From assembly GCA_937919655.1 (NCBI GenBank), contig CALFPJ010000026.1:1-64000 (forward strand): a stretch of DNA of 64,000 bases, given 5' to 3'. A model generated the notes under the pieces. The model made no database searches, was not told the origin of the DNA, and saw nothing but the letters and a program-made list of their open reading frames with translations. Origin of the DNA: an uncultured Gemmatimonadales bacterium. Its GTDB lineage: Bacteria > Gemmatimonadota > Gemmatimonadetes > Longimicrobiales > Gaopeijiaceae. Numbering within the stretch: position 1 is the stretch's first letter; every line of letters starts with the position of its first letter. Shown here in pieces: positions 1 to 38,874 of this stretch. Position numbers and translations under genes: made by a program.

Positions 1-117
1 GTAACGGCGCTCCCACGCTCGAAGCGTGGCTGGAGTGAGGCCCGTGCGTTGGGCGACCACACGAATGGGGTGTCGGGGGGTTGTGTCGGTGTCATTCATG
101 ACAAAGACGATAGCATC

Positions 118-158
118 CTGTACAGCCCGTGTCAAACAAATATCCACAGACTGTTCGA
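118..158 (+). promoter_or_regulatory. Candidate 11-bp repeat operator upstream of the fasciclin gene
   Basis: Four sites start every 11 bp: CTGTACAG (118), GTGTCAAA (129), ATATCCAC (140) and CTGTTCGA (151). They fit nTGTnnAn loosely and end just before the -35 box at 166. An 11-bp-spaced direct repeat is the known layout of CarH operators (consensus nTnTACAn on the other strand). Two of the four matches are weak, so this is an inference from spacing plus resemblance to better arrays at 12108 and 24142. Confidence 0.35.
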
Positions 159-165
159 CGTTGCC

Positions 166-194
166 TTGACAACGACGACGACTGCCGTGATAAT
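166..194 (+). promoter_or_regulatory. Sigma-70-type promoter
   Basis: TTGACA (166-171), a 17-bp spacer and GATAAT (189-194) make a near-consensus housekeeping promoter. Transcription should begin near 201, giving a leader of about 50 nt before the start codon at 251. A palindrome TTGTACAA (207-214), flanked by the related TTGGACAC (196) and TCGTTATT (218) at 11-bp steps, lies over the expected start site and could hold a repressor. Confidence 0.65.
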
Positions 195-250
195 CTTGGA
201 CACTCGTTGTACAAGGGTCGTTATTGGGTCCTCTTTCCAGGAAGAAACAC

Positions 251-739
251 ATGATACGCCAGATCACCCTCGCCGCGGCCGCCGCGGCGCTTATCGCGGC
301 CCCGGTCGCGATCGAAGCTCAGTCCAGTAAGGACATCGTCGCCACCGCCATCGAAGCGGGCACCTTCAACACGCTCGTAGCGGCGCTGCAAGCAGCCGAC
401 CTCGTGGGTGCACTTCAGGGAGAAGGTCCGTTCACGGTCTTCGCCCCCACGGACGCGGCGTTCGCCAAGCTCCCGGCCGGCACGGTGGAGGCACTTCTCG
501 CCGACAAGGATAAGTTGATCGCGATCCTGACCTACCACGTCGTCTCGGGCAAAGTGATGTCTGACGCGGTGGTGGGCCTCAAATCGGCCATGACCCTGTC
601 CGGGGTCGCCGCGCCGATCGAGGTCCGGATGGGCAGCGTATACGTCGGTGGCTCGAAGGTCACAACGGCGGACGTGACCGCCTCCAACGGCGTCATTCAC
701 ATCATCGACACGGTGATGCTCCCGGCAGGGATGCAGTAG
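251..739 (+). CDS. Secreted fasciclin (FAS1) domain protein
   Basis: A 162-residue protein with an N-terminal signal peptide (about residues 1-24, ending in an Ala-rich stretch and EAQ) followed by a single FAS1 domain. The family landmarks are visible: [11 protein letters not shown] near residue 75, LTYHVVSGK, and the closing [18 protein letters not shown]1 proteins sit in the periplasm or on the surface and bind lipids, retinoid-like ligands or other cells. The start at 251 is preferred over an earlier in-frame start at 224 because AGGAAGA lies 5 nt upstream and it begins the signal peptide. It has its own strong promoter and possible repeat operators, and precedes the lipid/light operon, suggesting but not proving co-regulation. 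Confidence 0.9.
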
Positions 740-777
740 GAGCTTGAGGGGGACTTCCACCTCGCTTGGGGATTCGT

Positions 778-803
778 GGCGGCCGGCGCACGCGCCGGCC
801 GCC
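778..803 (+). terminator. GC-rich perfect hairpin, possible terminator
   Basis: GGCGGCCGGCGC (778-789) is exactly complementary to 792-803, giving an 11-12 bp stem with a tiny loop 40 nt after the fasciclin stop. There is no T-run, so it may slow or end transcription only with Rho, or be an mRNA-stabilising structure. Confidence 0.4.
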
Positions 804-849
804 GCACCCCTTGCGGCTGTAAGAACCACTTCCCTTGAGACGCATCAGG

Positions 850-972
850 ATGAACGACTTCGTCAAGAAACCGGTTCCGTGGATTGTCGCCTCAGCTGAG
901 GATGTCATCACGATGACGGACAACAAGACAGTCGACCGGCAGCCCCCACTCCCCCTCCGGGAGCCGAGCTGA
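850..972 (+). CDS. Possible 40-residue leader protein
   Basis: An ATG at 850 opens a 40-codon frame ending at 972, only 2 nt before the start of the FAD oxidoreductase gene. The peptide starts MNDFVKKPVPWIVASAEDV and has a Pro-rich tail; it has no signal peptide or transmembrane segment. No good ribosome site precedes it (only AGG touching the ATG). It could couple translation to the downstream operon or simply be chance. I do not recognise it. Confidence 0.25.
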   Translation: MNDFVKKPVPWIVASAEDVITMTDNKTVDRQPPLPLREPS

Positions 973-974
973 TC

Positions 975-2204
975 ATGCGCGTCGCCATTGTCGGGAGCGG
1001 CGTGTCGGGACTCGTGGCGGCGCATTTGCTGCACCCAAGGCACGACATCACCGTCTTCGAGGCCCGCGACAGGATCGGCGGGCACGTGAACACGATTCCG
1101 GTCGAGACCGAGGGGGGCGCGTGGCATGTCGACACGGGCTTCATCGTCTACAACGAAGCCAACTACCCCAACTTCACCCGCCTGTTGAAGAAGCTCTCCG
1201 TAGGCACACAACCTTCGGACATGAGCTTCAGCGTCAGGTGTGACCGCACCGGACTCGAATACAACGGTTCGACGCTGCGCCAACTCTTCGTGCAGAAGAG
1301 GAATCTGATCCGCCCGGGCTTCTACCGGATGATCCGTGACATCCTCCGCTTCAACGCGGAAGCGCCCGGCGCCATCGCCAACGGCTCGGCCGGAATGTCC
1401 ATGGCCGAATACTTGGAGCACGGAAAGTACTCTTCCCGGCTGGCCGACCACTACCTCGTCCCCATGGCCTCTGCGCTTTGGTCGATGCCCCGCGGCAAGG
1501 TCCTGGAGATGCCCGCCGAGTTCTTCGTGCGCTTCTTCGACAACCATGGCATGCTCGAGGTCGACAACCGCCCGAAGTGGCGCGTGGTGGAGGGAGGATC
1601 GGCGAGTTACCTAGGCCCGCTCGTGGCACCGTTCAAGGAACGCATCCGAAGCTCGACCCCCGTCCAGAGCATCCGCCGCCATAACGACGAAGTGACCGTA
1701 AACGGGGAGCGCTTCGACGAAGTGATTCTGGCGTGCCACGCGGACCAAGCCCTGGGCATGTTGGCCGACCCGAGCGCGTCCGAGCGCGAGATCCTGGGCG
1801 CCCTGCCCTTTCAAGAGAACCAGGTCGTCCTGCACACAGACACGAACGTGCTTCCCCACCGGCAAAAGGCATGGGGTGCCTGGAACTACCACATCCGCCG
1901 TGAGGAGCATGAGCCCGTTACGGTCACGTACGACATGAACATCCTGCAGTCCCTCGCTGCACCCGAAACGTTTTGCGTGACGTTGAACCCGCCGGAGTGG
2001 ATCGACCCGTCTCGTATTCTCTACGAGACCACGTTCGACCACCCGGTGTTCACCGCTGCGGGGACTTTGGCGCAGGCCCGCCGCGGCGAGATCAGCGGCG
2101 TAAACCGCACCCATTATTGCGGCGCCTATTGGGGCTTTGGCTTCCACGAAGACGGGGTCAGAAGCGCCGTCGACGTCGGCCGGACCTTCCGAGCAGAGCT
2201 TTGA
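975..2204 (+). CDS. FAD-dependent amine-oxidase-like oxidoreductase (lipid-modification cluster)
   Basis: A 409-residue flavoprotein of the COG2907 type. The Rossmann FAD signature (VAIVGSGVSGLVAAHLL, then FEARDRIGGHV) occupies residues 3-36, and the C-terminus ends with the expected FAD-closing segment (YWGFGFHEDGVRSAVDVG). This family is nearly always followed by DUF1365 and a cyclopropane-synthase homologue, as here. In alphaproteobacteria flavin enzymes of this cluster act on acyl chains of membrane phospholipids in furan-fatty-acid synthesis, UfaD being the desaturase; equivalence here is inferred from context. It is the first solid gene of a seven-gene operon whose members overlap by 4 nt, the last being separated by 2 nt. 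Confidence 0.9.
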   Translation: MRVAIVGSGVSGLVAAHLLHPRHDITVFEARDRIGGHVNTIPVETEGGAWHVDTGFIVYNEANYPNFTRLLKKLSVGTQPSDMSFSVRCDRTGLEYNGSTLRQLFVQKRNLIRPGFYRMIRDILRFNAEAPGAIANGSAGMSMAEYLEHGKYSSRLADHYLVPMASALWSMPRGKVLEMPAEFFVRFFDNHGMLEVDNRPKWRVVEGGSASYLGPLVAPFKERIRSSTPVQSIRRHNDEVTVNGERFDEVILACHADQALGMLADPSASEREILGALPFQENQVVLHTDTNVLPHRQKAWGAWNYHIRREEHEPVTVTYDMNILQSLAAPETFCVTLNPPEWIDPSRILYETTFDHPVFTAAGTLAQARRGEISGVNRTHYCGAYWGFGFHEDGVRSAVDVGRTFRAEL

Positions 2205-2959
2205 ACAGCTGCCTCTACTTCGGAACCGTTCAGCATCGACGGTTCGCTCCCAGAGCACACTCGTTCTCGTACTCGATCTTCCAGATGTACCTGGACCTCG
2301 ACGAAGTGCCGGAGCTGTTCGACGGACGCCTGCTCTGGTCGGCCCGCAGGCCGGCGCCAGCCTGGTTCCGACGCTCCGACTACCTGGGGGACCCGGACGA
2401 GACGCTCGATGAAGCGGTGCGCCGCGAAGCCCAACGCCAAACCGGGACCCGACCCGAAGGTCCCATCCGGGTGCTGACGCATCTTCGCTACCTGGGCTTG
2501 GTCATGAACCCCGTGACCTTCTACTACTGCTTCGACCGCACCGGTGAGCACGTCGAGGTCATTCTCGCTGAGATCACCAACACCCCCTGGAAGGAATGCC
2601 ACGTGTACGCGCTCGCGGCGGGCCCGGACCGGCAGGAAGCCACGGGGCACCGACATCGCTTTGGAAAGCAGTTCCACGTGTCTCCCTTCTTCGCAATGGA
2701 CCACGCCTACGACTGGCGCTTCGGCGAACCCGGTGACCGGCTCCACGTGCACATGGAGAACTACGCGGAAGGCTCTCGCGTCTTCGACGCCACGCTCTCG
2801 CTGCGTCGGCAGGAGATCACGGGCGGTTCGCTCGCCATGGCACTCGCGCGCTTCCCTTGGATGACCGCCAAGGTCGCCGGCGGCATTTACTGGCAAGCCG
2901 CCCGGTTGTGGGCGAAGCGCACCCCATTTTTCACCCATCCGGAAAGGCAATCCGCATGA
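2201..2959 (+). CDS. DUF1365 family protein
   Basis: A 252-residue protein. The TTG at 2201 overlaps the upstream stop by 4 nt (TTGA) and gives the N-terminus LNSCLYFGTVQHRRF, exactly where DUF1365 proteins begin (normally MNSALYFG-V-HRR), so the longer reading from 1973 is rejected. Further family features are the YLGLVMNPVTFYYCFD segment near residue 95, NTPWKECHVYAL, and KQFHVSPFFAMDHAYDWRF. The biochemistry of DUF1365 is not settled; its constant pairing with the FAD oxidoreductase and CFA-like methyltransferase suggests oxidation or handling of modified acyl chains, possibly the UfaO-type oxygenation step. Confidence 0.9.
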   Translation: MNSCLYFGTVQHRRFAPRAHSFSYSIFQMYLDLDEVPELFDGRLLWSARRPAPAWFRRSDYLGDPDETLDEAVRREAQRQTGTRPEGPIRVLTHLRYLGLVMNPVTFYYCFDRTGEHVEVILAEITNTPWKECHVYALAAGPDRQEATGHRHRFGKQFHVSPFFAMDHAYDWRFGEPGDRLHVHMENYAEGSRVFDATLSLRRQEITGGSLAMALARFPWMTAKVAGGIYWQAARLWAKRTPFFTHPERQSA

Positions 2960-4194
2960 CCCTCATCGATGGTATGGCCCGCCGCGCGGTGGAGGCCCGA
3001 CTGCGTCGCCTAAGCGAAGGTCGACTCACCATACGAGAAGGAGGCAACATTACGGTTTACGGATCGGGTGATGGCCCCTCAGCCACACTCACGATCCACG
3101 ATTCGGGCTTCTACGCCGCACTCGCGTTCGGTGGCCACCTGGGCGCGGCCGAGTCCTACATCTCAGGCGGATGGGACACGGACGACCTGACCGCCCTCGT
3201 CCAACTTCTCGTCCGCAATCGTGACGTGCTGGATTCACTCGAAACTGGCCTGGCGCGACTCGTCCAACCGGCGAGGGCGCTGCTGCACGCCATCAACCGA
3301 AACACCAAACGCGGCAGCAAGCGCAACATCGTCGCGCACTACGATCTGGGTAACGCACTCTTCGAGGCGTTTCTAGACGAAACCATGACGTACTCGGCCG
3401 GGATCTTCCCCACGCCTGAGGCATCCATGCGCGACGCCTCCATCGAGAAGTACGATCGTCTGTGTCGCAAACTCGAGCTCACGTCGGCGGATCACGTACT
3501 GGAGATCGGCACCGGCTGGGGCGGCTTCGCGATCCACGCGGCGTCCACCTACGGATGCCGGGTCACGACGACGACCATCTCCAACGAGCAGTACGCGCTC
3601 GCCCAGTCGCGGGTCGAAGCGGCCGGATTGAGTCATCTGATCACGCTCCTTCAGGATGACTACCGCGACCTCGAGGGCACCTACGACAAGCTGGTATCCA
3701 TCGAGATGATCGAGGCAGTAGGGCACCAGTACTTCGATGAGTACTTCCGCCAGTGTGCCCGGCTCCTCTCCGCCGATGGTCTCGCGGCGATCCAGGCCAT
3801 CACGATCCAGGACCGCATGTACGAATCGGCACGAAAGGAAGTCGACTTCATCAAGAAGTACATCTTCCCTGGCAGCTGTATTCCCGCGGTGTCCGTGCTG
3901 GCCTCGGCTGCGGCCCCGACCGACCTCCGGCTCGTGCATCTTGAGGACATCACACCCCACTACGCCGAAACATTACGCCGGTGGAAGTCCCGTTTCCACG
4001 CCAACTGGGGGGAGATCGCCGCCCACGGATACGGCGAAGATTTCAGGCGGATGTGGGACTTCTACTTGTCTTACTGTGAAGGCGGTTTCAACGAGGCCGT
4101 CATCGGAAGCGTTCAGTTGGTGTTCGCGAAACCGAGGGCGTCCGCCGCCCTGGCCGGCGGAGTCGTTCGGCGCCTGGAGACCATCGCATCATGA
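2956..4194 (+). CDS. Cyclopropane-fatty-acyl-phospholipid synthase-like methyltransferase
   Basis: A 412-residue SAM-dependent enzyme of the CFA/mycolic acid synthase family. Residues 126-151 hold the substrate-entry signature (AHYDLGNALFEAFLDETM), and the SAM motif VLEIGTGWGGFA is at 181-192. ATG at 2956 overlaps the DUF1365 stop (ATGA). The cysteine found in classical CFA synthases after the TYS of this signature (YSCAYF/W) is replaced: here it reads TYSAGIF. That change, and the FAD-enzyme and DUF1365 neighbours, favour a UfaM-like role (methylating an unsaturated acyl chain without ring closure) over plain cyclopropanation. Acts at the cytoplasmic face of the membrane. Confidence 0.88.
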   Translation: MTLIDGMARRAVEARLRRLSEGRLTIREGGNITVYGSGDGPSATLTIHDSGFYAALAFGGHLGAAESYISGGWDTDDLTALVQLLVRNRDVLDSLETGLARLVQPARALLHAINRNTKRGSKRNIVAHYDLGNALFEAFLDETMTYSAGIFPTPEASMRDASIEKYDRLCRKLELTSADHVLEIGTGWGGFAIHAASTYGCRVTTTTISNEQYALAQSRVEAAGLSHLITLLQDDYRDLEGTYDKLVSIEMIEAVGHQYFDEYFRQCARLLSADGLAAIQAITIQDRMYESARKEVDFIKKYIFPGSCIPAVSVLASAAAPTDLRLVHLEDITPHYAETLRRWKSRFHANWGEIAAHGYGEDFRRMWDFYLSYCEGGFNEAVIGSVQLVFAKPRASAALAGGVVRRLETIAS

Positions 4195-5204
4195 TCGCAT
4201 CGACTGGCATCGCTCTAGCCGAGCGCGGCTTCGTGCCCCTATCGGGGCTTCGGCTCGGCATTCGGAACCTCCTCAAGCAACGCCTCCGCGACAGCGCCTC
4301 CGCCCCGAGCATCGAGGCGTTCACGCGTGAGTTGGCTGAGAGCCCTATCGCTCTGGCCACCGATAAGGCGAACGAACAGCACTACGAGCTTCCGCCGGAA
4401 TTCTTCGCCCTGGTATTGGGCCCGCACCTGAAGTACAGCGGTGCATTCTGGCCGGACGGCACGAAGGACCTCGACGGGGCCGAGATCCGCATGCTCGAGC
4501 TCACCTGTGCGCGGGCCGAACTCGAGGATGGGCAAGATATCTTGGAGTTGGGCTGCGGGTGGGGCTCGCTCACCCTGCACATGGCGCGCACGTATCCGAA
4601 CAGCCGCATCACGGCGGTCTCGAACTCCGCGCCTCAGCGGCGCTATATCGAAGCCAATGCACCGAAGAACGTCCGTGTCGTGACTGCGGATATGAACGAC
4701 TTCACGCCGGAAGGAGTCTTCGACCGCGTCGTCAGCGTCGAGATGTTCGAGCATATGCGAAACTACGAGGAGCTACTGCGTCGGATCCGCAGCTGGCTCC
4801 AACCGGACGGGAAGCTCTTCGTTCACATTTTCTGCCATCGTGAGCACGCCTATCCGTTCGAGGTCGAAGGCGAGCACAACTGGATGGGTCGGTACTTCTT
4901 CACCGGTGGAATCATGCCCTCCTTCGATCTGTTGCCGCGTTTCGATCGGGACATGGTGGTCGAGGAGCAGTGGGCGGTGGACGGGACCCACTACAGCAAA
5001 ACCGCCCGAGCTTGGCGTGAGAATCTCGAGAGCAAGCGCCCGGAGGTGGCCAAGGTCCTGCGCCCGACGTACGGCCACGAGGCGGGGACATGGTACCATC
5101 GCTGGCGCCTCTTCTTCCTGTCGTGCGAAGAGCTTTTCGGATACCGAGGCGGCTCGGAGTGGCTGGTCGGGCACTATCGCTTCTCGGCGAGGCCCGCAGA
5201 ATGA
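4191..5204 (+). CDS. Second CFA-family SAM-dependent methyltransferase
   Basis: A 337-residue methyltransferase of COG2230, closer to the coclaurine-N-methyltransferase-like branch than to true CFA synthases. It shows QHYELPPEFFALVLGPHLKYSGAFW near residues 63-87, SAM motif DILELGCGWGSLTLHMA, and VSVEMFEHMRNY. The usual YSCC/YSCA cysteine is again absent (YSGAFW). It overlaps the preceding gene by 4 nt. By analogy with FufM of Rhodopseudomonas, a second methylation of a furan ring is one possible function, but small-molecule methylation cannot be excluded. Confidence 0.82.
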   Translation: MIASTGIALAERGFVPLSGLRLGIRNLLKQRLRDSASAPSIEAFTRELAESPIALATDKANEQHYELPPEFFALVLGPHLKYSGAFWPDGTKDLDGAEIRMLELTCARAELEDGQDILELGCGWGSLTLHMARTYPNSRITAVSNSAPQRRYIEANAPKNVRVVTADMNDFTPEGVFDRVVSVEMFEHMRNYEELLRRIRSWLQPDGKLFVHIFCHREHAYPFEVEGEHNWMGRYFFTGGIMPSFDLLPRFDRDMVVEEQWAVDGTHYSKTARAWRENLESKRPEVAKVLRPTYGHEAGTWYHRWRLFFLSCEELFGYRGGSEWLVGHYRFSARPAE

Positions 5205-5677
5205 CCAGGCACGTCCTAGAGCGCCGGCAGATCGTGCCCGCCGACTTGCACACGGTCTTCAGCTTCTTCGAGGATCCATGGAATCTCGAGAGGCTGACCC
5301 CTCCATGGCTCAACTTCAACGTGCGCGCCACCACGGACCGCAAGGTTCGCCTCGGCACGGAGATCGAGTACCGACTTCGCTGGCAGATCTTCCCCATGAC
5401 ATGGCGGTCTCGGATTTCTGAGTACGTCCCAGGCGTACGCTTCGCGGATGAAATGCTCGAAGGGCCCTACAAGCGTTGGTACCATCGTCATCTCTTCAAT
5501 GAAGTCAGTGCCGGGGTCGAGATCGTGGACATCGTGGAGTATGAACTGCCCCTCGGCCCACTAGGCCGTATTGTGCACGCGGCGGTCATCCGCAGCCAAC
5601 TCGAAAGCATCTTCGACTACCGACGCAGGGCCGCGACCAGACTCTTCGAGGAAGCGCGTTTGGTGATCGGTCGATGA
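5201..5677 (+). CDS. SRPBCC-family ligand-binding protein
   Basis: A 158-residue START/Bet v1-like protein, recognised from the opening VLERRQIVPADLHTVFSFFEDPWNLERLTPPWL and the later PGVRFADEMLEGPYKRWYHRHLF. Such proteins bind hydrophobic ligands in a deep pocket and are common in photolyase/lipid-stress clusters. The start at 5201 overlaps the previous stop (ATGA); the in-frame extension back to 5090 lies inside the methyltransferase gene and is unlikely. No signal peptide, so cytosolic. Ligand unknown; an acyl chain or isoprenoid would fit the operon. Confidence 0.82.
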   Translation: MTRHVLERRQIVPADLHTVFSFFEDPWNLERLTPPWLNFNVRATTDRKVRLGTEIEYRLRWQIFPMTWRSRISEYVPGVRFADEMLEGPYKRWYHRHLFNEVSAGVEIVDIVEYELPLGPLGRIVHAAVIRSQLESIFDYRRRAATRLFEEARLVIGR

Positions 5678-6417
5678 GCGGCGAGCTCCAGACCCTCGAG
5701 GTCGATCGTCCTGCGGGCGCTGTCGAAGGCCATCCCGTCGCAGACCGCGTCCGCGCCCGGCTGATCGCGGCGGGTCAGCGTTTCCACGCGAACGACAACA
5801 TCAGCGCGTTCTTGGAGACTGGAGAGCTTGACGAGATCCAGGCTGAGGTCGCCGTGCAGCTCCAGGGAGTCCTGGAAGCGCTCGTGATCGACACCGACAG
5901 CGACCATAACACGCACGACACGGCCCGCCGCGTCGCGAAGATGTTCATCAGAGAGGTGTTCGGGGGCCGTTATGCCCCGGCGCCCCCGGTGACGGAGTTC
6001 CCGAACATCGCTGGGCTGAGCGAGTTAATGATTGTCGGCCCCATCACAGTGCGCAGCGCGTGCTCACACCACCTGTGCCCGATCATCGGCCAGGTGTGGG
6101 TCGGGGTCATGCCGAACGAAAGCTCGGACCTGATCGGCCTGTCGAAGTACGCGCGCCTCGTGGAGTGGGTGATGTCGCGCCCCCAGATCCAAGAGGAGGC
6201 GATCGCCCAGCTCGCCGACCTTCTTCAAGAGAAGATGCGCCCGGACGGCCTGGCCGTGGTAATGACCGCGGATCACTTCTGCATGCAGTGGCGCGGAGTG
6301 AGAGACATGGATTCGAAGATGACGAACAGCGTTATGCGTGGGTCATTCCTCAAAAACGGCGGCCTGCGGCGGGAATTCCTTGCGCTCCTGGCCAGCCAAC
6401 AATCGGGAGGTCGTTAG
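5674..6417 (+). CDS. folE: GTP cyclohydrolase I
   Basis: A 247-residue FolE, converting GTP to 7,8-dihydroneopterin triphosphate, the first step of folate/pterin synthesis. The zinc ligands are visible: Cys130 and His133 in SACSHHLCPIIGQ and Cys203 in DHFCMQWRGV. The helix GLSKYARLVEWVMSRPQIQE (155-174) and MTNSVMRGSF are also family-typical. It overlaps the SRPBCC gene by 4 nt. Extra folE copies often sit with photolyase genes, where the product can feed the folate antenna chromophore (MTHF) or a pterin; that link is inference here. Confidence 0.93.
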   Translation: MSGELQTLEVDRPAGAVEGHPVADRVRARLIAAGQRFHANDNISAFLETGELDEIQAEVAVQLQGVLEALVIDTDSDHNTHDTARRVAKMFIREVFGGRYAPAPPVTEFPNIAGLSELMIVGPITVRSACSHHLCPIIGQVWVGVMPNESSDLIGLSKYARLVEWVMSRPQIQEEAIAQLADLLQEKMRPDGLAVVMTADHFCMQWRGVRDMDSKMTNSVMRGSFLKNGGLRREFLALLASQQSGGR

Positions 6418-6419
6418 AG

Positions 6420-6842
6420 ATGCTGGTACGTCTGCTTTATGCCAGCCGGGGGGTCGAGCCCATCAACCAGTCCGTGCTCGACTCGATTCTGCAGCAGTCA
6501 CGGGCCCAGAACGCGGAAATGGGCATCACGGGCGTCTTATGCGCCTACGAGGACGGGAACGGATTCCTGCAGGCCCTCGAGGGTGGTCGCTCCGAGGTGA
6601 ACCGGCTGTACAACAAGATCGTCTGCGACGACCGCCACACCGACGTCGTCCTGCTCGATTACGCCGAAATTCACGAACGCCGCTTCGCGAATTGGCGCAT
6701 GGGGCGTATCGACCTGGGTCGCGTGAACCCGAGTGTGCTCTTGCGCTACTGTGAGCACCCCCGGCTGGACCCGACCTCGCTCACCGCGCGTGCGGCGATG
6801 GCGATGCTCGAGGAGCTCACGAGTACCTTGTCGAGCGCCTAA
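6420..6842 (+). CDS. BLUF-domain blue-light photoreceptor
   Basis: A 140-residue protein that is essentially one BLUF domain (sensor of blue light using FAD) with a short helical tail. The photoactive triad is present: Tyr7 (LLYAS), Asn31 and Gln51 (GFLQALEG), plus the GITGVL motif. Start 6420 is 2 nt after the folE stop and avoids a long extension through folE. As a short BLUF protein it probably signals through protein-protein contact rather than an attached enzyme. Last gene of the operon; its 3' end overlaps the convergent MFS gene by 26 nt. Confidence 0.93.
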   Translation: MLVRLLYASRGVEPINQSVLDSILQQSRAQNAEMGITGVLCAYEDGNGFLQALEGGRSEVNRLYNKIVCDDRHTDVVLLDYAEIHERRFANWRMGRIDLGRVNPSVLLRYCEHPRLDPTSLTARAAMAMLEELTSTLSSA

Positions 6843-8190
6843 GCAGCTCCGCACGCACCTCGGCGTGCCGCTCACGCGTGATCGGGAATCCATACAGGAA
6901 TAGCGCCCCGATCCCCATGAGCAGGGCCGGCACGCCACCGTACACCCACATGAGGCGACCCTGAATGACGGCAGAGATCATCGGGTCGGCAGGGTCGTAG
7001 CCGAGCACACTGGGCAGCGTGGTGCCGAGCACCACACCGAACGCGAGCGAGAGCTTGATGGTCATTCCCCATGCGGCAAAGAAGAGCCCCGAACGCTGCT
7101 CACCGCTCTCGAGCGTATCGACATCGATCACGTCCGCGGCAATGGAATTCGCGAGGAACAGAATCGACGCGAAGCTCGACCCCCGAACCACGATAATCGC
7201 GATTAGGGCCGCGGTGTGACCTTCTCGTAGGAACACCAGGGGCAGGCTCCAGACCGCAATCCACATCGCGGCCGCCAGCAGTGCCCGATGTTTGCCGATC
7301 CGAACCGAAATCGCCAACCACAACGGGATTCCGGCGAGCGTGGCGACGTTCTCCAGCAAGATCATGGTGGGAAAGCGACGCTCGTCCGCCATGACGTCCG
7401 CGAGGACGAGCCGGTGCAGCGTCCCCTGAATCGCCACGCCGGACACGAAGAACAGGACGCAGCCGACCATCCGCAGGAACGCCGGGTTCCTTGCCACGAT
7501 CTTTAGGCCGACCAGGGTGCTGCGCCGCTCATGCCGGAAACCCTCGGGCGCCCCTTCGGGAACGCCCATGACACAGACGGCCAGCAGGATCGGCAGACCG
7601 ATGACGACGGCGGTCGCGATGCCGCGCAGTTGGTCGGCCGCGTCCTCGACGCCTCGCACCGCCAGCCACACAACCGCAGCCAGCAGCCCAACCTGCCCCA
7701 CCGTCGCGATCGCCTCGCGCCACCCGGTGACGCGCGAGCGCTCGTCGTAGTCCGTGGACAGCTCGGCGCCCCACGCCTTGTGGGGCAGGTCGATCATGGT
7801 GAAGCCCAGGTACAGGATCGCAGACCAGACAGCCAGATGAGTGGCAGACGCGGCGTCTCCCGGGACGAAGACCTTCCACAGGCCGAGCAGGAAGAGAGGA
7901 GCTCCCAGCAGCATCCAAGGCTTCCGACGCCCGAGCGGCAGGCGCAGCCGGTCGCTAAGCGCCCCGATGAGCGGATCGGTGACGACGTCCAGCAACCGGG
8001 AAAGAGCGATCGCGCCTCCGACGGCCGCCAATGACACGCCCAGATCATCGGCGTAGAACGCTGGCACGAAGAGCGCCAACGGCAGCGCCGCCACGGCCGT
8101 CACAAGCGACGGCGCCGAGTATGCGAGGAGCCGCCCGCGGCTCAGGCGCTGAAGTGCGCGGGTCGGCTTATCACCGTGGTCGTCCGGCAC
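6817..8190 (-). CDS. MFS transporter of the GPH (sugar:cation symporter-like) family
   Basis: A 457-residue inner-membrane carrier with about 12 hydrophobic segments. The GPH/MelB signature is seen early: LSRLLDVVTDPLIGALSDRLRLPLGRRKPWML (about residues 64-95). It begins with GTG at 8190, sharing one base with the stop of the upstream DUF1295 gene (TAGTG), so it is translationally coupled as the last gene of the photolyase operon. Similar carriers recur in light and singlet-oxygen regulons of proteobacteria; the substrate is not known and a sugar is not implied. Confidence 0.85.
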   Translation of the reverse strand: MPDDHGDKPTRALQRLSRGRLLAYSAPSLVTAVAALPLALFVPAFYADDLGVSLAAVGGAIALSRLLDVVTDPLIGALSDRLRLPLGRRKPWMLLGAPLFLLGLWKVFVPGDAASATHLAVWSAILYLGFTMIDLPHKAWGAELSTDYDERSRVTGWREAIATVGQVGLLAAVVWLAVRGVEDAADQLRGIATAVVIGLPILLAVCVMGVPEGAPEGFRHERRSTLVGLKIVARNPAFLRMVGCVLFFVSGVAIQGTLHRLVLADVMADERRFPTMILLENVATLAGIPLWLAISVRIGKHRALLAAAMWIAVWSLPLVFLREGHTAALIAIIVVRGSSFASILFLANSIAADVIDVDTLESGEQRSGLFFAAWGMTIKLSLAFGVVLGTTLPSVLGYDPADPMISAVIQGRLMWVYGGVPALLMGIGALFLYGFPITRERHAEVRAELLRRSTRYS

Positions 8191-9062
8191 TACCGGGGAC
8201 GCCGCATGACCAGCTCCGGCGTCCGATTCCGATACGCCTGGTACTCAGGGTCCTCCCCCCATTTCGCTTGGGCTCTTTCCTCAAGCAGCGGAATCCCGCT
8301 CACGCGCGTGAGCAGGAGATACACGAAGAGGGGTGAGACCAGCGTGACGTATTGCCACCCGGCAAGCTCCGGATAAGCGATGATCGCCACACCGACCCAC
8401 AGCACGATTTCGCCGAAGTAGTTGGGGTGGCGCGACCATGCCCACAGCCCGCTCTGGATGAAGCGACCTCGGTTTTCGGGATCGGTACGGAAGCGCCGCT
8501 TCTGGCGATCCGCGACGACCTCAATGGCGAAGCCGACGGCCCAGATCAGTGCGCCGACCAGCGCGGCTCCCCCCAGTGGGCGCACCCCTTCGCTGGTGAT
8601 CGCGGCCAAAGCGCACGCCAGGGTGAGAAAGACCCATAAACCCTGGAGCGTCCAGGCGCCCAGAAAGCGCGAAAAGCTCGTCTTCAACTCATCAAAGCGG
8701 CCATCTTTGCCCTCCCGGTTGATCCGAGAGAACAAGAAGGTCCCCAACCGGATGGCCCAGACCAGAACCAGAGCAGCCAGCAGGAGCGAGCGCGGATCCG
8801 TGGCGGCTGTCGCCAAGAGCGCGGTCCCGATAACCGTGACGTAGGTGAGGCTCCCAGCCAGGTCGAAGAAGCGCTCTGTCTGGGCGAGGTACGAAGGCAC
8901 GAAGACGACCCAGTTGATGACGAATGCGAGAAGTCCGCACAGGGCGAAAACCGGCACGCCACCTGCGCTGACCCCGCCCTGGCTTCCCGCCCAGGCGACG
9001 GCGGCGCCCACCGCTATGATCGCGGGGACGGCCATCAAGGCGCGTTGTCCGGGCTGGTTCAT
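8190..9062 (-). CDS. DUF1295 membrane protein (steroid 5-alpha-reductase-like)
   Basis: A 290-residue integral membrane protein of COG3752. The C-terminal half has the NADPH-binding region of the isoprenylcysteine methyltransferase/steroid reductase superfamily: GRFIQSGLWAWSRHPNYFGEIVLWVG near residues 204-229, then LEERAQAKWGEDPEYQAYR. At least seven hydrophobic segments precede and surround it. Its stop/start overlap with the photolyase gene (4 nt) and with the MFS gene (1 nt) places it in the photolyase operon. A reductive step on a membrane lipid or isoprenoid is plausible; the substrate is unknown. Confidence 0.85.
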   Translation of the reverse strand: MNQPGQRALMAVPAIIAVGAAVAWAGSQGGVSAGGVPVFALCGLLAFVINWVVFVPSYLAQTERFFDLAGSLTYVTVIGTALLATAATDPRSLLLAALVLVWAIRLGTFLFSRINREGKDGRFDELKTSFSRFLGAWTLQGLWVFLTLACALAAITSEGVRPLGGAALVGALIWAVGFAIEVVADRQKRRFRTDPENRGRFIQSGLWAWSRHPNYFGEIVLWVGVAIIAYPELAGWQYVTLVSPLFVYLLLTRVSGIPLLEERAQAKWGEDPEYQAYRNRTPELVMRRPR

Positions 9063-10564
9063 GGTCGTCCCCTCGGATCATATGCAGCGTGCGCACCGGG
9101 CCGCCGATCGGCCCATTTCGCCAGGTACTGTTCCAAATCGACCTTCCGTCGGGTCGACTTCGATGTCATGGAGCGAACCTTCCCAAAGACGGGTCGCTCC
9201 GGCCATCCGCGGTCGAATCGACCCATGACCCAGAAGATACCGCTGTCTGAGTTCGGATCTCGCCCATCGATGGCATAGCGGTTGTTCAGTTCGATCATCA
9301 CGTCCAGAGCCTCACGGGGATGCTCCGTCCACTCCAGGATCTTCTTGCCCCACAACATCCGCAGGTAGTTGTGGATGCGTCCCTCCTGCACCAGCTGCCT
9401 TTGCGCGGCGTTCCACAGGTCGTCGTGGGTCTCAGCGCCGGCGAATTTCCCTAGGGAGTACGTATACTCTCGGCGGTCCGCGACGTGATCTTCGAGTGTG
9501 TTTCGGGCCCATTCCGGTAGCGCCTCATAGCGCGCACCGTCCGGTTGATGCGCGCTGTATCCGTAACCCAACTCGCGCCATGTGATCAGCTGGTCCAGGA
9601 AGGCCTCGGCCGGTTCGCTCATGCCCCACCATCCATTCCGGCGACCGTCGGCCTTTTCGGAAAGCCTGAGCGGGCTCCATCCCTCCGCGTCTATGACCGC
9701 CTGGAAGACCTCGTGGCTCGACAGGTGCCCGTAGTGCAGCCATGGGGACAGCCCACTGGCCCCGTCTCGATCCGGATGGTTACGGTCCTCGAAATACCGG
9801 GGGAGTCGGTCACGCACGAAACCGTTCAGCGCGGCCCGGCCTGCCGCGGCGCCGCCGACCCAGGACGTCGCCGCCACGGAGTGATCGATGGGCAGGGTGC
9901 TGACGAAGTCTCTCGACTCGAGTTCGGCCGCGCTCGCGGGCGACCACCGGTCGAGGATCGGCTCCGGGAGCGAGGCGAGCTTCAGTAGGTCGAGTTGGCT
10001 CAGCGGGGCACGCGACGGTGCGTCCCCAAGGTGTTCCGGCAACGACTTGTGCAAAAATCGGCGAAAATGATACGCCGCCGTAAATGTGCGCTCCGCGGCA
10101 CGGAGAGGCAGTAGCCCACAGCTGTCGACGGCTTGAACGCCCACACCTTCCAGGCGCCCCGCTGCCTGGAGGAGCCGCCCGTTCAAAAAGACCGGGGAAT
10201 CGTCGGTGACCACGAAACACGCCGATGCCGCCAACGAAGAAAGGAGCCCACGCCCGGAGCCGCGTCGCCGCTCAACGTACGGGTAGTAAGCGACCGACGT
10301 GTGAGAGAGCGCTTCCCGATGCTCGCCCATCCCGTCCAGGAGCGCCTGGTGGTGGCGGTCCGAGGCCCATGGGTACGCGACAGACACGGCTTCGAAGATG
10401 AGGAGCGGCTTTCCCAGGCTCTTGGCCAGGTGCAACGCGTGGTCGAGCGCAAAATTCCACTCGAGGCGGCGCGTCGCCGTCATCCAATACAGGACGAACG
10501 ACCCCTCCGCGCGCGGAGGCGCGTCGACCAGCTGTCGAATGCGGATCGCGGGCACCTTCCTCAT
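9059..10564 (-). CDS. Class II cyclobutane-pyrimidine-dimer photolyase
   Basis: A 501-residue FAD photolyase that repairs UV-induced pyrimidine dimers using blue light. The N-terminal Rossmann antenna domain begins with SFVLYWMTATRRLEWNFAL; class II markers in the C-terminal FAD domain are EAFLDQLITWRELGY, and LWNAAQRQLVQEGRIHNYLRMLWGKKILEW (about residues 387-416). Length fits class II (450-500). Second gene of its operon, overlapping both neighbours by 4 nt. With folE and BLUF nearby on the opposite strand, this marks the region as light-responsive. Confidence 0.95.
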   Translation of the reverse strand: MRKVPAIRIRQLVDAPPRAEGSFVLYWMTATRRLEWNFALDHALHLAKSLGKPLLIFEAVSVAYPWASDRHHQALLDGMGEHREALSHTSVAYYPYVERRRGSGRGLLSSLAASACFVVTDDSPVFLNGRLLQAAGRLEGVGVQAVDSCGLLPLRAAERTFTAAYHFRRFLHKSLPEHLGDAPSRAPLSQLDLLKLASLPEPILDRWSPASAAELESRDFVSTLPIDHSVAATSWVGGAAAGRAALNGFVRDRLPRYFEDRNHPDRDGASGLSPWLHYGHLSSHEVFQAVIDAEGWSPLRLSEKADGRRNGWWGMSEPAEAFLDQLITWRELGYGYSAHQPDGARYEALPEWARNTLEDHVADRREYTYSLGKFAGAETHDDLWNAAQRQLVQEGRIHNYLRMLWGKKILEWTEHPREALDVMIELNNRYAIDGRDPNSDSGIFWVMGRFDRGWPERPVFGKVRSMTSKSTRRKVDLEQYLAKWADRRPGAHAAYDPRGRP

Positions 10565-12048
10565 GAGGCGCCCTGGTCTGACGTCAACGCATCCCGTGCG
10601 ATGGCGTTCACGAGGTCACTGAAGATACGGGCGTGCAGCGGGTAGATGCCGTACCAATAGAGCCACCCGAAGAATCCGGTGGGGGCGAAGAACGCCGTTT
10701 GGACGAGTCGCGTCTGGTCGCCTTCCGGGATCGCCTCGAACTGCAGCCAGGCCCGACCTGGGACCTTCATCTCAGCGCGCAAACGCAGAAGGGAGGAGGG
10801 CTGATACTCCTCCACGCGCCAGAAGTCCAAAGCCTCTCCGGGATAGAGCACCAGCGGGTCGCGCCTGCCACGCCGGAGCCCCGGACCGCCCACGATCTGG
10901 TCGATGACGCCCCGCACCTTCCACGCCCAATTCCACACCAGCCAACCGCGCGCTCCGCCGAGACTGGAGAACGCCGCGAACACGGCGGCGGCGGGCGCAT
11001 CCACGAGCTTGGAGCGGATCTCGCGCACCACACCTTCTTTGTCTTCGAGGCGGACCTTCGGGCTGTTCGGGCCGCCGGCGACGCTCCAGCGCGTCGCGAC
11101 CTCGCCGGCCTCGGTGTGGGCCAGCGCACTCGACACCGCGGCGACGTACGACTCCGGCTCGATCTCGGGGAAGAGCGCGCGGGCACGGGTCGTGTCGCCG
11201 ACCACGGGCTGAACGACCCCCTGGACGAGGGGCACTGCCAGACAGTTGGGGATCGGTGTGACCAGGCCCACCCAGAGCGCAGCGAGCGACGGCGCCAGCA
11301 CGGGGACCGGGATGATCAACCGGGGCAGGCCACGCACCTCCGCGTACCGCTCCATCATGGCTTTGAAGGTCAGGCGATCCGACCCGATATCGATTACACC
11401 GAGCGAGTCGGCACGCCCCACCGCCGCCACGAGGTACGACAGCGCGTCTCGAATCGCGATCGGCTGCACTTCGTTGAGAATCCACTTGGGCGCGATCATC
11501 GCCGGGAGGCGTTCGGTCAGATACCGGACCATCTCGAAGGAGGCCGAGCCGCCGCCAATGATCGGGCCGGCGCGGAACTCGGTGACCGGCAGCCCGGCAT
11601 GGAGAATCGAGCCGATTTCAGCTCGGCTGCGCAGGTGCTCGGATGTCGTCTGCGACGCCTCGGTCTCGGGCAGAATCCCGCCGAGATAGATGAGCTGATC
11701 CAGTGCCACGCCGGCCGCGACGAAATTGCGCGCGGCTCGGCGATCGGTCTCGGCGAAGTCGTCTCCGGAACACATCGAGTGCACCAGGTAGTAGGCCACC
11801 GAGACGCCGTCCAACGCTGCAGCGAGTGACCCTATATCCATCAGGTCGGCCTCTACGATTTCCACGCTCGGCCCCCAAGATCTCGCGCTCGCCCGTTTCG
11901 CATCCCGGGCCATCACTCGCACCGCGTGCCCCGCGTCCAGCAGCTCTTGCACGAGTCGGCCTCCCACGTACCCGGTAGCGCCGGTGACCAATACCGGACG
12001 CCTGGACTTGAATAGGCCGTCTTGAGTCCTATGCTCGCGGGGCATCAT
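10561..12048 (-). CDS. NAD(P)-binding SDR/NmrA-like protein fused to a DUF2867 (SRPBCC-like) domain
   Basis: A 495-residue two-domain protein. The N-terminal atypical short-chain dehydrogenase domain shows PVLVTGATGYVGGRLVQELL (residues 18-37); from about residue 315 a DUF2867 domain follows, with LVWNWAWKVRGVIDQIVGGPG and the terminal FGWLYWYGIYPLHARIFSDLV. This architecture is common beside photolyases and TspO/DUF2177 genes, but its reaction is unproven. First gene of the photolyase operon. Two adjacent ATGs (12048, 12045) are possible starts; no strong ribosome site is seen. A perfect TATAAT lies upstream at 12097-12092 on this strand. Confidence 0.88.
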   Translation of the reverse strand: MMPREHRTQDGLFKSRRPVLVTGATGYVGGRLVQELLDAGHAVRVMARDAKRASARSWGPSVEIVEADLMDIGSLAAALDGVSVAYYLVHSMCSGDDFAETDRRAARNFVAAGVALDQLIYLGGILPETEASQTTSEHLRSRAEIGSILHAGLPVTEFRAGPIIGGGSASFEMVRYLTERLPAMIAPKWILNEVQPIAIRDALSYLVAAVGRADSLGVIDIGSDRLTFKAMMERYAEVRGLPRLIIPVPVLAPSLAALWVGLVTPIPNCLAVPLVQGVVQPVVGDTTRARALFPEIEPESYVAAVSSALAHTEAGEVATRWSVAGGPNSPKVRLEDKEGVVREIRSKLVDAPAAAVFAAFSSLGGARGWLVWNWAWKVRGVIDQIVGGPGLRRGRRDPLVLYPGEALDFWRVEEYQPSSLLRLRAEMKVPGRAWLQFEAIPEGDQTRLVQTAFFAPTGFFGWLYWYGIYPLHARIFSDLVNAIARDALTSDQGAS

Positions 12049-12055
12049 TCGTCAC

Positions 12056-12149
12056 TTGTCTAAGGACTGCACAAAGTTCGCATCCAAAAATATTATAAGT
12101 TGGCGGGATGTACAAGCATTGTTAAGCTTTTGTCTAACAAATTGTTTAA
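12056..12149. promoter_or_regulatory. Divergent promoter region with 11-bp repeat array (CarH/LitR-like operator)
   Basis: Between two divergent genes an AT-rich 120-bp region holds ATGTACAA (12108), TTGTTAAG (12119), TTGTCTAA (12130) and TTGTTTAA (12142), that is nTGTnnAn-like sites at 11, 11 and 12 bp steps. Two more, TTGTCTAA (12056) and CTGCACAA (12067), are also 11 bp apart. For the leftward photolyase operon a perfect TATAAT lies at 12097-12092 and the array covers the place of its -35 box, which has no consensus match. This is the geometry known for CarH operators, where B12-bound repressor leaves DNA in light. Confidence 0.6.
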
Positions 12150-12170
12150 TCCACGGTACGGGCGCCTTCT

Positions 12171-12692
12171 ATGACGAACACAGAGACCCTTCTCGCTCTC
12201 GCGGAGATCTGCGCCGCGTTCGCGGGCTTCGCCGCCCTTGTAAGCGCCTTGCGCCGCGACCGCGGAGCCATCGCTGAAGCCGTGCACGATCTCCTGAGGC
12301 TGCGACTCGTCATTGCCAGCAGCGTCGCAGGGGTGGCTGCGGCGCTGATCCCCGTGGGCCTCGCGGGGTATGGCCTGGACATCGACCTGACGTGGAGGCT
12401 CGCGGCGCTGGTCTTCCTGATCTTCGACAACGGGATCATCGTCTCCTTCCTGGGCGCCTACGGCCCCGTGAAGGCAATCGTGAAGCCGGACCGCCTGGCC
12501 ATCGCCGTCGTGTCTTCACTCGAGGTGGTGGAACAGTCGAGCCTCGCGCTCGTCCTCTTTGGATTGTGGACCGAGAATGCTCCTGCGCTCTATGTCACGG
12601 CCCTGATCGCGAACATCTGTCAGGCCGGTTTCATCTTCGTGCGTTTCGTAGGCTCGGCGTTGCACCACGAAAACCAACTCTTTGAAGGCTGA
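12171..12692 (+). CDS. Small integral membrane protein of unknown function
   Basis: A 173-residue protein with four or five hydrophobic helices (about 8-26, 42-66, 75-95, 105-125, 140-160) and no recognised domain. The opening LAEICAAFAGFAALVSALRRD is reminiscent of a small family of uncharacterised bacterial membrane proteins. It is transcribed divergently from the photolyase operon across the repeat-bearing control region, so it may belong to the same regulon. Ribosome site is poor. Function not assigned. Confidence 0.75.
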   Translation: MTNTETLLALAEICAAFAGFAALVSALRRDRGAIAEAVHDLLRLRLVIASSVAGVAAALIPVGLAGYGLDIDLTWRLAALVFLIFDNGIIVSFLGAYGPVKAIVKPDRLAIAVVSSLEVVEQSSLALVLFGLWTENAPALYVTALIANICQAGFIFVRFVGSALHHENQLFEG

Positions 12693-12778
12693 CCCGCAGA
12701 CACTCGCGCCGAAGCCACCCCTGGCCCGAGAGGTATGCTTTCCTGGGGCGCTTGTTCCGAAGGTCGATTGAGATATGT

Positions 12779-12802
12779 TTGTCTAAGAAAATACCTATAC
12801 AA
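12779..12802 (+). promoter_or_regulatory. TTGT...ACAA element upstream of the DUF5916 gene
   Basis: TTGTCTAA at 12779-12786 is an exact third copy of the octamer in the photolyase control region; CTATACAA at 12795-12802 matches the CarH half-site nTnTACAn. Together they frame a TTGT-N16-ACAA inverted pair in the 43 bp before the start codon at 12822. TATACA (12796-12801) could serve as a -10 box but has no good -35. Confidence 0.4.
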
Positions 12803-12821
12803 CACTTGGACCTATAAAGAA

Positions 12822-15215
12822 ATGGTCAAGATCGTCCTTGCGTTCGCGCTCTCCATCCAGATGCAAGTCCCTCCCGATGGGTCCGAGGTACCGCCCGCGG
12901 CCGCGAGCGGTCCGCACGCCGCCGCGAGCGGTCCGCACGCCGCCGGCATGTCCTACGACGGGTCCGCGCGACAGCTCGATATCGAGGCGCCGCGCATCAT
13001 GGACCCCCGCATCGCCATCGACGGGCGACTGGACGACGCAGCGTGGGCCGATGCCGCCGTCCTGACCGGCTTCACGCAGTTCGATCCGATCGAAGGTGCC
13101 CCAGCCTCGGAGCGCACCGAGGTGCGAGTGATCGTCGCAGCGGACGCGGTCTACTTCTCCGTGCGGGCCCTCGACTCGAGCGGCGGCGTGCGCGCAACGT
13201 TGACGGACCGTGACGGTTACGGTCGCTCCGATGACTACGTGCGCTTCATCCTGGACACCTTCAACGACCAGCGACGCGCCTACGTGTTCATGGTGAACCC
13301 ACTCGGCGTGCAGGGCGACGGCCTCTGGGTGGAAGGACGGGGAGGCCGAGGCGGACCTATCGATTGGTCGCCGGACTTTCTTTGGGAGTCCGCCGGACGC
13401 GTGGACGCCCATGGGTACTCAGCCGAGCTGAAGATTCCCTTCAAATCGATGCGTTTTCCGGACGCCGACGTGCAGGACTGGGGCCTACAGATCCAACGGT
13501 CGATTCGCCGTACCGGGTACGAGCAGTCGTGGGCCCCCATCACGCGGGACGAGGCCAACGGCCTGGCGCAGTCCGGATCGATCCGGGCCCTAGAAGGCAT
13601 CGATCCGGGGATGTTCCTCGAGTTCAACCCAACCATGGTGGGATCGAAGTCAGGCCGATGGGACGACAACCTGGGTCAGTTCGCGAGGGGATCGTCCAAT
13701 GGAGAGTTCGGGCTCAACGTCGCGTACGGCCTGACGTCGAACCTCACTCTGGACGGCACGCTCAACCCGGACTTCAGTCAGGTCGAGGCCGATGCGGGCC
13801 AGATCGTGGTTAACGAACGATTCGCACTGTTCCTTCGTGAGCAGCGGCCCTTCTTCTTGGAAGGAGCCGACATCTTCTCGATGCCCAAGCAGATCGTCTA
13901 CACGCGCTCGATCGTGAATCCTGTCGGAGCCGCGAAGCTCTCCGGCAAAATCGGCGCGTTCAACGTCGCCTACCTCGGCGCTGTGGACGAACTGAACGGT
14001 GGCGCCTCCAGCCCCGTGGTGAACCTCCTGCGGGTGAAGCGGGACCTGGGCCGCACTTCGACCATGGGCGCGGTCTACACGGACCGCACCGAGTCCGGGG
14101 ACGGGTTCAACCGCGTGCTGGGCGCGGATGCCCGACTCGTGCTGGGCGGGCGCTATACCGTGGAGATGATGGCGGCCGGAAGCGCGGATGGCGCAGGCGG
14201 GGCGCCCACCAACTGGGGCTCGCTCTTCACTGCGAGCGTCAACCGTGCGAGCCGCTCCCTCTCCATGAGCGCCTCGTTCGAAGACGTCGGAGCAGGCTTC
14301 CGCGCGGGGAGCGGCTTCATTCGCCGCACCGGCGTTACGCAGTTCGAGGCGCGAACGGGTTACACATTCCGCGGCAAGCGCGGCGCACTGTTGGAGCAGT
14401 TGAGTCCGTCCATCGAGGTGCAGGGCTACTGGGATCGAGACGACTTCTGGGCCGGCAGGGGAACGCAAGAGCGCGAAGTGAACGCCTCCCTGAACGCGTC
14501 GCTGCGCGACAACATCGGGGGCTACCTGAACTACCGCCGGAGTGACTTCGACTTCGCTCCGTCCTACTATGCCGGCTTCGGGAGTGGCTCGAACCCCGAC
14601 AACCTCGCCCCGATCTCTTCGGATCGATCGCTCTACTCGGGCCTCGAGTCGTTCAGTGTGCGCTCGTGGATCAGCAGCTGGGAGCGGGTGCGCCCCTCCT
14701 TCGGAGCCTCCGTGTCGGACACCCCCATCTTCTCCAGCGGTGTTCCGGTGGATCTGGGGCGCACCTGGAGTGCCGACGCATCGTTGACGCTGGTTCCCAA
14801 CGGACAGTTCCAGGCCACACTCGGGGCGCGGCATGTGAAGATCTTCCGGCAGCGAGACGACTCGGAGTACTCGTCGGCAACGATCCCGCGCCTACAGCTG
14901 CGCTACCAGCTGTCCCGGGCCCTGTTCATTCGTGGGGTCGGGGAGTATTCCAGCCAGGTCCGCGGCAACGTGCTGGACCCGGTCACGGGACAACAGGTCT
15001 ATAGTTGCTCGGCCAATACGTGTTCGGCTCGCACAGGCTCCGATGCGCACGACTTCGGGATCGAGACGCTGCTCGCCTATGAACCGTCTCCGGGCACCGT
15101 CTTTTTCCTAGGCTACACTCGCCAGTGGGACGACACGTCCGGCTTCCGCTTCCAGGATGTCCGCGCCGACGCCGACGGCCTCTTCGTGAAGCTCAGCTAC
15201 CGGTTCCGGATGTAG
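12822..15215 (+). CDS. Outer-membrane DUF5916 protein with CBM9-like N-terminal domain
   Basis: A 797-residue exported protein. After a short signal peptide and an Ala/Pro linker, residues about 45-200 resemble a carbohydrate-binding family 9 fold (IDGRLDDAAWADAAVLTGF), followed by the DUF5916 beta-barrel with its hallmark TLNPDFSQVEADAGQIVVNERFALF and REQRPFFLEGADIF. It ends LSYRFRM, typical of outer-membrane strands. The start at 12822 is chosen over 12735 because it begins the signal sequence. Role unknown; these proteins are frequent in Gemmatimonadota and Bacteroidota and may bind glycans or peptides. Confidence 0.85.
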   Translation: MVKIVLAFALSIQMQVPPDGSEVPPAAASGPHAAASGPHAAGMSYDGSARQLDIEAPRIMDPRIAIDGRLDDAAWADAAVLTGFTQFDPIEGAPASERTEVRVIVAADAVYFSVRALDSSGGVRATLTDRDGYGRSDDYVRFILDTFNDQRRAYVFMVNPLGVQGDGLWVEGRGGRGGPIDWSPDFLWESAGRVDAHGYSAELKIPFKSMRFPDADVQDWGLQIQRSIRRTGYEQSWAPITRDEANGLAQSGSIRALEGIDPGMFLEFNPTMVGSKSGRWDDNLGQFARGSSNGEFGLNVAYGLTSNLTLDGTLNPDFSQVEADAGQIVVNERFALFLREQRPFFLEGADIFSMPKQIVYTRSIVNPVGAAKLSGKIGAFNVAYLGAVDELNGGASSPVVNLLRVKRDLGRTSTMGAVYTDRTESGDGFNRVLGADARLVLGGRYTVEMMAAGSADGAGGAPTNWGSLFTASVNRASRSLSMSASFEDVGAGFRAGSGFIRRTGVTQFEARTGYTFRGKRGALLEQLSPSIEVQGYWDRDDFWAGRGTQEREVNASLNASLRDNIGGYLNYRRSDFDFAPSYYAGFGSGSNPDNLAPISSDRSLYSGLESFSVRSWISSWERVRPSFGASVSDTPIFSSGVPVDLGRTWSADASLTLVPNGQFQATLGARHVKIFRQRDDSEYSSATIPRLQLRYQLSRALFIRGVGEYSSQVRGNVLDPVTGQQVYSCSANTCSARTGSDAHDFGIETLLAYEPSPGTVFFLGYTRQWDDTSGFRFQDVRADADGLFVKLSYRFRM
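12900..12941 (+). repeat. Perfect 21-bp tandem duplication
   Basis: Copies 12900-12920 and 12921-12941 are identical and encode two AASGPHA heptads in the linker after the signal peptide of the DUF5916 protein. In-frame, so length variation between strains would be tolerated. Confidence 0.85.
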
Positions 15216-19967: not shown

Positions 19968-19979
19968 CGGCGCAACGCC

Positions 19980-23671: not shown

Positions 23672-24120
23672 GCTAGCCCCAGCCGCCGACCCATGCCGTA
23701 CCCCGCGGCGGAGACGGTGCCGGTCACGAACGTGCCCCAGGCGATGTCCGTGAGCGCGAGCCGAAGCGGAAAGTCCCTGAAGACCGCCATAGACGTCAGA
23801 TCGAAGGTCGAATAAGCGAGTAGCCCCAAAAAGCCACCCAAGGCTACGGCCCTATGGAGCCGGCGCGCCCTCAGTCCCGGCAACACAGCAAAGACGAGAA
23901 TGCCCGCGATGTAGATGACGTAAAAGGCGACCGCTGGCGCGGGCAGAAAGGTCTCGCGCACCAGGTGCCCGACCTCGTTCTGGAAGAGGGGGCCAGCCAC
24001 CAGCCCGAGCCAGGCCGCTTCAGCGGCCAGGAGGACACCGCCGGTCATCATGTAGAGCTTCACGTATGCCACGGGAGCTTCATCCGGTAGAGCCGATTCC
24101 ATCGGCATTTTGTTGGACAT
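23668..24120 (-). CDS. DUF2177 membrane protein
   Basis: A 150-residue inner-membrane protein with four helices and the DUF2177 pattern: AEAAWLGLVAG, PAPAVAFYVIYIAGILVFAVLPGL, GGFLGLLAYSTFDLTSMAVF and LALTDIAWGTFVTG. First gene of the TspO/receptor/DUF427 operon. ATG 24120 lies inside a repeat of the candidate operator, so the in-frame ATGs at 24108 or 24102 are alternatives if transcription starts near 24115. Function unknown; often beside SDR/DUF2867 and photolyase genes. Confidence 0.87.
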   Translation of the reverse strand: MSNKMPMESALPDEAPVAYVKLYMMTGGVLLAAEAAWLGLVAGPLFQNEVGHLVRETFLPAPAVAFYVIYIAGILVFAVLPGLRARRLHRAVALGGFLGLLAYSTFDLTSMAVFRDFPLRLALTDIAWGTFVTGTVSAAGYGMGRRLGLA

Positions 24121-24183
24121 TAATATAACAATGATTCTACATTAGCTCCACTCGGCGCACTGCAGCGCGCTTTTATTAGACAT
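24113..24183 (-). promoter_or_regulatory. 11-bp repeat array and short upstream frame before DUF2177
   Basis: On the minus strand ATGTAGAA (24142-24135), TTGTTATA (24131-24124) and ATGTCCAA (24120-24113) start exactly 11 bp apart, matching the nTGTnnAn pattern of the photolyase region; ATGTCTAA recurs at 24183. A TATATT box (24127-24122) lies within. The last element also opens a 13-codon frame (24183-24142) beginning MSNK, the same four residues that begin DUF2177, perhaps a duplicated gene start or a leader peptide. Confidence 0.45.
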
Positions 24184-38812: not shown

Positions 38813-38874
38813 AAGGGCTGGTCGCGCACCGCTCGACTGCCGCCGTGCTGATGCTTCGGGGGCACGCGACGCGA

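Follow-up and report, generated by a model that had tools for sequence, protein, structure and literature searches.

The window analysed here is a 64-kb stretch of DNA from the start of contig C26. Its left part contains a minus-strand operon of overlapping genes and a plus-strand cluster facing it. The operon begins with a gene for an SDR/NmrA-DUF2867 protein (10561..12048; Pfam DUF2867 and NAD(P)-binding), followed by a probable class II-type deoxyribodipyrimidine photolyase (phr2, 9059..10564), a DUF1295 membrane protein (8190..9062) and, as the final gene, an MFS_2 transporter (6817..8190), the last two assigned by Pfam. The photolyase matched TIGR00591 (phr2) over its full length with an E value of 1e-109 and 368 bits, below the cut-off of 550, and it matched zero Pfam families at 1e-3. 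The facing cluster (251..6842, +) encodes fasciclin, an amine-oxidase-like protein, DUF1365, two CMAS-type methyltransferases, SRPBCC, GTP cyclohydrolase I (FolE) and BLUF. The BLUF photoreceptor gene (~6420-6842, +) adjoins folE.

The light-induced LitR regulon of Pseudomonas contains photolyase, short-chain dehydrogenase, FAD oxidoreductase, UfaM and FolE (PMC9758184). As annotated, the operon and facing cluster of the window are close to this regulon in gene content. Rhodobacter has a furan-fatty-acid gene set (PMC7380195) of which the amine-oxidase-like, DUF1365 and methyltransferase genes are reminiscent, and they may be assigned to it by analogy.

An array of short direct repeats (12108..12149) lies in the intergenic region between the start of the leftward operon (12048) and the rightward gene at 12171 (orf12171, a membrane protein). 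The first-pass annotation had described four nTGTnnAn sites here at 11-12 bp spacing, and all of them were present on the plus strand: ATGTACAA at 12108, TTGTTAAG at 12119, TTGTCTAA at 12130 and TTGTTTAA at 12142, with spacings of 11, 11 and 12 bp. It was the sole chain of at least three nTGTnnAn sites at 10-12 bp steps in the whole 64-kb window. The worry that such arrays might be equally common in random DNA was not borne out. Chains of four arose in 0 of 5000 dinucleotide shuffles of the local 122 bp (12049-12170), which gave chains of three in 0.04% of cases, and in none of 100 shuffles of the whole window.

Read on the operon strand, the repeats are TTAAACAA (12149-12142), TTAGACAA (12137-12130), CTTAACAA (12126-12119) and TTGTACAT (12115-12108), with spacings of 12, 11 and 11 bp. 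All four match TnnACA, which forms the core of the CarH repeat nnnnTnnACAn as published (PMC9304148), and with these spacings the array has the form of a CarH operator, that is, tandem 11-bp nnnnTnnACAn repeats over a promoter. An isolated fifth repeat, also TTAGACAA, is located directly before the SDR start codon (12056..12063, -), where the same-genus genome G035 has TTCTACAA. The site at 12056 had been paired with another at 12067. The former is real and conserved in the same-genus genome, but the latter (CTGCACAA) contains no nTGTnnAn match and fits the consensus only in the opposite orientation, so the two do not form a like-oriented pair. The octamer TTGTCTAA, which had been reported to recur, has 3 copies in the window (12056, 12130 and again 12779) versus 0.29 expected. 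Next to the third copy, CTATACAA and TTGGACCT stand 11 bp apart upstream of a DUF5916 gene (12779-12813). This arrangement is suggestive and within chance: its score of 13.3 did not rise above the window-wide null, and an operator of the DUF5916 gene that includes the 12779 octamer was rejected.

A perfect TATAAT had also been noted in the promoter. The hexamer exists on the minus strand (12097-12092) and the array lies over the -35 region, but the -35 of this hexamer at a 17-bp spacer would be AATGCT, which is not a good one. The other candidate in the -10 region (12087..12097, -) is TATTTT (12092-12087), and the last repeat, TTGTAC (12115-12110), sits 17 bp from it. Whichever candidate applies, the predicted -35 region is covered by the array.

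Repeats of the same type were found at the left edge of the window. The predicted carH promoter (107..135, -), TTGACA-N17-TATCGT, carries two TnnACA repeats 11 bp apart (TTGACA, 135-130; TGTACA, 124-119), and the -35 TTGACA itself is one of them. On the other strand, the divergent fasciclin promoter (166..214, +), TTGACA-N17-GATAAT, is followed by TTGGACAC at 196 and TTGTACAA at 207, in which TTGGACA and TTGTACA are 11 bp apart. The carH-fasciclin pair is conserved in the family. Judged solely by the repeats at 196 and 207, the genes of the facing cluster (251..6842) are probable members of the regulon.

A second candidate operator (24113..24142, +) overlaps the start of a DUF2177 gene (23668-24120, -; Pfam). 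At 23.3 it scored above all of 60 simulated null windows, which reached 19.4 at most, and it was therefore counted as a probable second operator. For DUF2177 homologs in relatives, no upstream array was seen in 4 of 5 loci (three genomes); at locus L011, DUF2177 and the SDR gene face each other with the SDR array between them. The neighbouring region 20594-23671 (-) is a single open frame that links an N-terminal part resembling TspO (21 bits in Pfam, just below cut-off) to a TonB-dependent receptor, as a fused gene or as two genes sharing the frame.

The whole genome was then scanned by pattern matching with mismatches (three TnnACAA repeats at 11 bp), with the reversed pattern as control. 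The array at the photolyase operon turned out to be the best three-repeat match in the genome and the one place with at most one mismatch. The remaining places had two or three mismatches, and their number resembled that of the reversed control (11 versus 7 in all). Two three-mismatch places lie in the window, at 196-224 adjoining carH and at 24114-24142 adjoining the DUF2177 gene. Close to a contig end, at G000:C85:5892-5920 (L057), TATACAA-TATACAA-TCGACTT follow each other at 11-bp intervals in front of a gene for a TolC-like outer-membrane protein and may form a further operator.

If the array is a CarH-type operator, as the first-pass annotation had proposed, the genome should encode a MerR-B12 regulator, and it does so at the left edge of the same contig. 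The first 99 bases of the window (1..99, -) encode MNDTDTTPRHPIRVVAQRTGLTPATLRAWERRY, the first 33 codons of carH with a MerR helix-turn-helix start, in a frame that leaves the left edge and continues on contig C98. A B12-binding domain search of the same genome detected the second carH piece at the right end of C98, whose last 55 bases exactly equal the first 55 of the window, with the reading frame open across to give a 310-aa protein. The gene spans the contig break, and the two contigs were joined by the 55-bp overlap alone. The 310-aa protein contains MerR_1, B12-binding_2 and B12-binding domains, each above cut-off, in the order of CarH/LitR of the AdoCbl type (N-terminal MerR DNA-binding, C-terminal B12-binding), and the T. 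thermophilus CarH structures are its best relatives in the PDB.

CarH homologs are defined by the Wx9EH and ExHx2G...GG motifs together (PMC8156234). Both motifs were found in the 310-aa protein, Wx9EH as WEAGEIRPAQEH and the B12 motif ExHx2Gx41SxV/Tx22-27GG, by regular expression, as ExHx2Gx41SxVx27GG. The NCBIfam CarH equivalog NF052513 was the best family in the library, yet it scored 113 bits against a cut-off of 400; this model is strict, so we call the protein a CarH homolog and not an equivalog. In T. thermophilus CarH, the His adjoining the Trp becomes a cobalt ligand on exposure to light; this residue lies outside the published CarH definition. Our protein has Glu at this position, and among the family CarH homologs listed, the His was found only in L084. 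Elsewhere in the genome, a separate B12-binding small-subunit-type protein adjoins a methylmalonyl-CoA-mutase-like reading frame, which suggests that AdoCbl is in use in this cell.

The comparison was extended to 121 genomes of the same family. CarH matches at E <= 1e-25 were obtained in 57 of them, a count that includes remoter MerR-B12 homologs and fragments. Six remoter proteins (L088, L090, L091, L092, L094 and L095) keep Wx9EH and replace ExHxxG by GHRHExG, GQRHExG or a similar sequence; they are possibly another LitR subclass. The exact triple-repeat pattern was not enriched in the 121 genomes (3 versus 2 control matches). The repeats are degenerate and exact triples are therefore rare, so pair-distance statistics were used instead. 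The 28 carH upstream regions contained 176 TnnACA sites versus 53 expected. Like-oriented pairs numbered 44 at exactly 11 bp, versus a mean of ~2.7 at other distances. From sequence alone, this peak establishes which type of operator this CarH lineage has, and the concentration of the 11-bp repeat upstream of carH across the family is expected for autoregulation. The upstream regions of 11 SDR orthologs gave 9 pairs at 11-12 bp versus 0.2 expected, the window's own array included; no array was seen at several remoter SDR orthologs in the family. Same-genus G035 keeps both the array, whose ACAA motifs recur in register every 11 bp, and the lone repeat ahead of the start codon, while the DNA separating the two has diverged.

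These results bear on the possibility that the repeats arose by chance in AT-rich intergenic DNA. Our controls showed that AT-rich upstream regions score high at other spacings too, and the position of the best array upstream of carH was for that reason discarded as stand-alone evidence. Even so, the complete absence of four-site chains from the same-dinucleotide local shuffles, the sharp pair peaks upstream of carH and SDR, and the conservation of the repeats in register make chance extremely improbable. A different regulator with a similar repeat preference is also very improbable as the owner of the array. Many MerR-type sites are short and AT-rich, which gives this idea some ground, but across the family this repeat and its 11-bp spacing are concentrated in front of carH, and the carH genes of relatives show linkage to SDR, fasciclin, DUF2177, phr, the amine-oxidase-like gene or orf12171.

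It could further be argued that the array mainly controls the divergent orf12171, whose start codon is 21 bp from the array end, rather than the photolyase operon. We consider this quite improbable: G035 and other relatives have the array upstream of SDR even where orf12171 is absent or elsewhere, and the conserved fifth repeat is beside the SDR start. The array stays with SDR independently of orf12171 and is thus tied to the photolyase operon.

Several other observations were made in the comparison. Exact arrays in two other genomes (L096 and L098) adjoin genes without a visible link to light response. The SDR-carH link extends past Gemmatimonadota, as judged from gene homology in Thermus arciformis (L047), where a stretch of ~6.5 kb holds homologs of SDR and CarH (5243-6637, 10856-11655) together with an 11-bp array that includes TTGACA. 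Positions 2564-20090 of the window show 99.8% DNA identity over 17.5 kb with L036 (JAQBXY010000037.1, 24,031 bp), from the other-genus genome G100, whereas positions 38000-46000 are syntenic at ~70% with same-genus G035 and only patchy in G100. For the near-identical L036 stretch, misbinning of the contig in G100 or a recent transfer is the probable explanation.

We conclude, with a probability of roughly 0.87, that 12108-12149 is a predicted CarH/LitR operator, by which AdoCbl-CarH would repress a photo-protection operon in the dark and release it in the light. This reading is supported by the carH gene with both signature motifs, by the rank of the array as the best in the genome, and by the family-wide 11-bp TnnACA repeats upstream of carH. 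Against it stand the one spacing of 12 instead of 11, the absent Trp-adjacent His, the NF052513 score (113 versus 400 bits), the contig break within carH, and the remoter SDR orthologs that lack an array. By analogy with CarH, the protein loaded with adenosylcobalamin would oligomerise in the dark, and its MerR-type DNA-binding domains would occupy the four TnnACA repeats, spaced 11-12 bp, over the -35 region. Bound CarH would block transcription of the SDR-DUF2867, class II photolyase, DUF1295 and MFS genes. Light would break the Co-C bond of adenosylcobalamin, CarH would leave the DNA, and the photo-protection operon would be expressed. CarH may also act at the operators of its own promoter and of the divergent fasciclin promoter.

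The light signal deserves separate consideration. CarH could bind the array while the main signal comes from another receptor, for example the BLUF protein (~6420-6842) antagonising CarH. In E. coli, BluF antagonises BluR. A LOV-controlled LitR also exists, as LOV antagonises class II LitR in Pseudomonas (PMC9758184). The BLUF domain gene in the same cluster and the absence of the bis-His residue from CarH are consistent with such an arrangement; however, CarH has the complete AdoCbl motifs (Wx9EH and ExHx2G...GG), and the relatives' loci examined showed no BLUF gene close to carH or SDR, except for the near-identical L036. We therefore regard another receptor as distinctly unlikely. It is conceivable, if rather unlikely, that a CarH lineage without the bis-His light adduct cooperates with the BLUF of the same cluster, which would place B12 and flavin sensors on one regulon for photolyase and membrane-lipid defence.

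The CarH light switch is of an already known kind. The first-pass annotation had called the system little described in this lineage; in agreement with this, no earlier description of CarH or LitR in Gemmatimonadota was found in the literature searched, where one paper, on another subject, mentioned both CarH and Gemmatimonadetes. Our analysis would extend B12-based light sensing, with its operators, to Gemmatimonadota, where photolyase, pterin synthesis and fatty-acid modification are the predicted light-induced genes, and it yields a collection of natural operators from across the family. Two features could set the system apart from known CarH switches, namely the lack of the bis-His residue and the BLUF gene nearby. 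The missing His beside the Wx9EH Trp also offers a natural test of how far CarH function depends on the bis-His light state.

Compared with known systems, our protein shares the MerR plus B12 architecture and the Wx9EH and B12 motifs with CarH of Thermus thermophilus and Bacillus megaterium. The operators of these two are likewise three or four tandem 11-bp TnnACA repeats over -35 or -10 (PMC9304148). Our system differs from theirs in the one 12-bp spacing, the change of the Trp-adjacent His to Glu, and the target, which is predicted to be a photolyase operon here and is carotenoid genes there. The myxobacterial CarH/CarA operators are similar in that their 11-bp repeats are a mix of perfect (DR) and imperfect (dr) ones, one of which contains the -35 (PMC9304148), but these regulators control carotenogenesis, and CarA is B12-independent. 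The Pseudomonas LitR regulon (PplR1, PmlR1/PmlR2; class II LitR) resembles ours in gene content and is light-induced there, whereas its operator is TGTACA-N12-TGTACA and PmlR2 is under the control of a LOV protein (PMC9758184).
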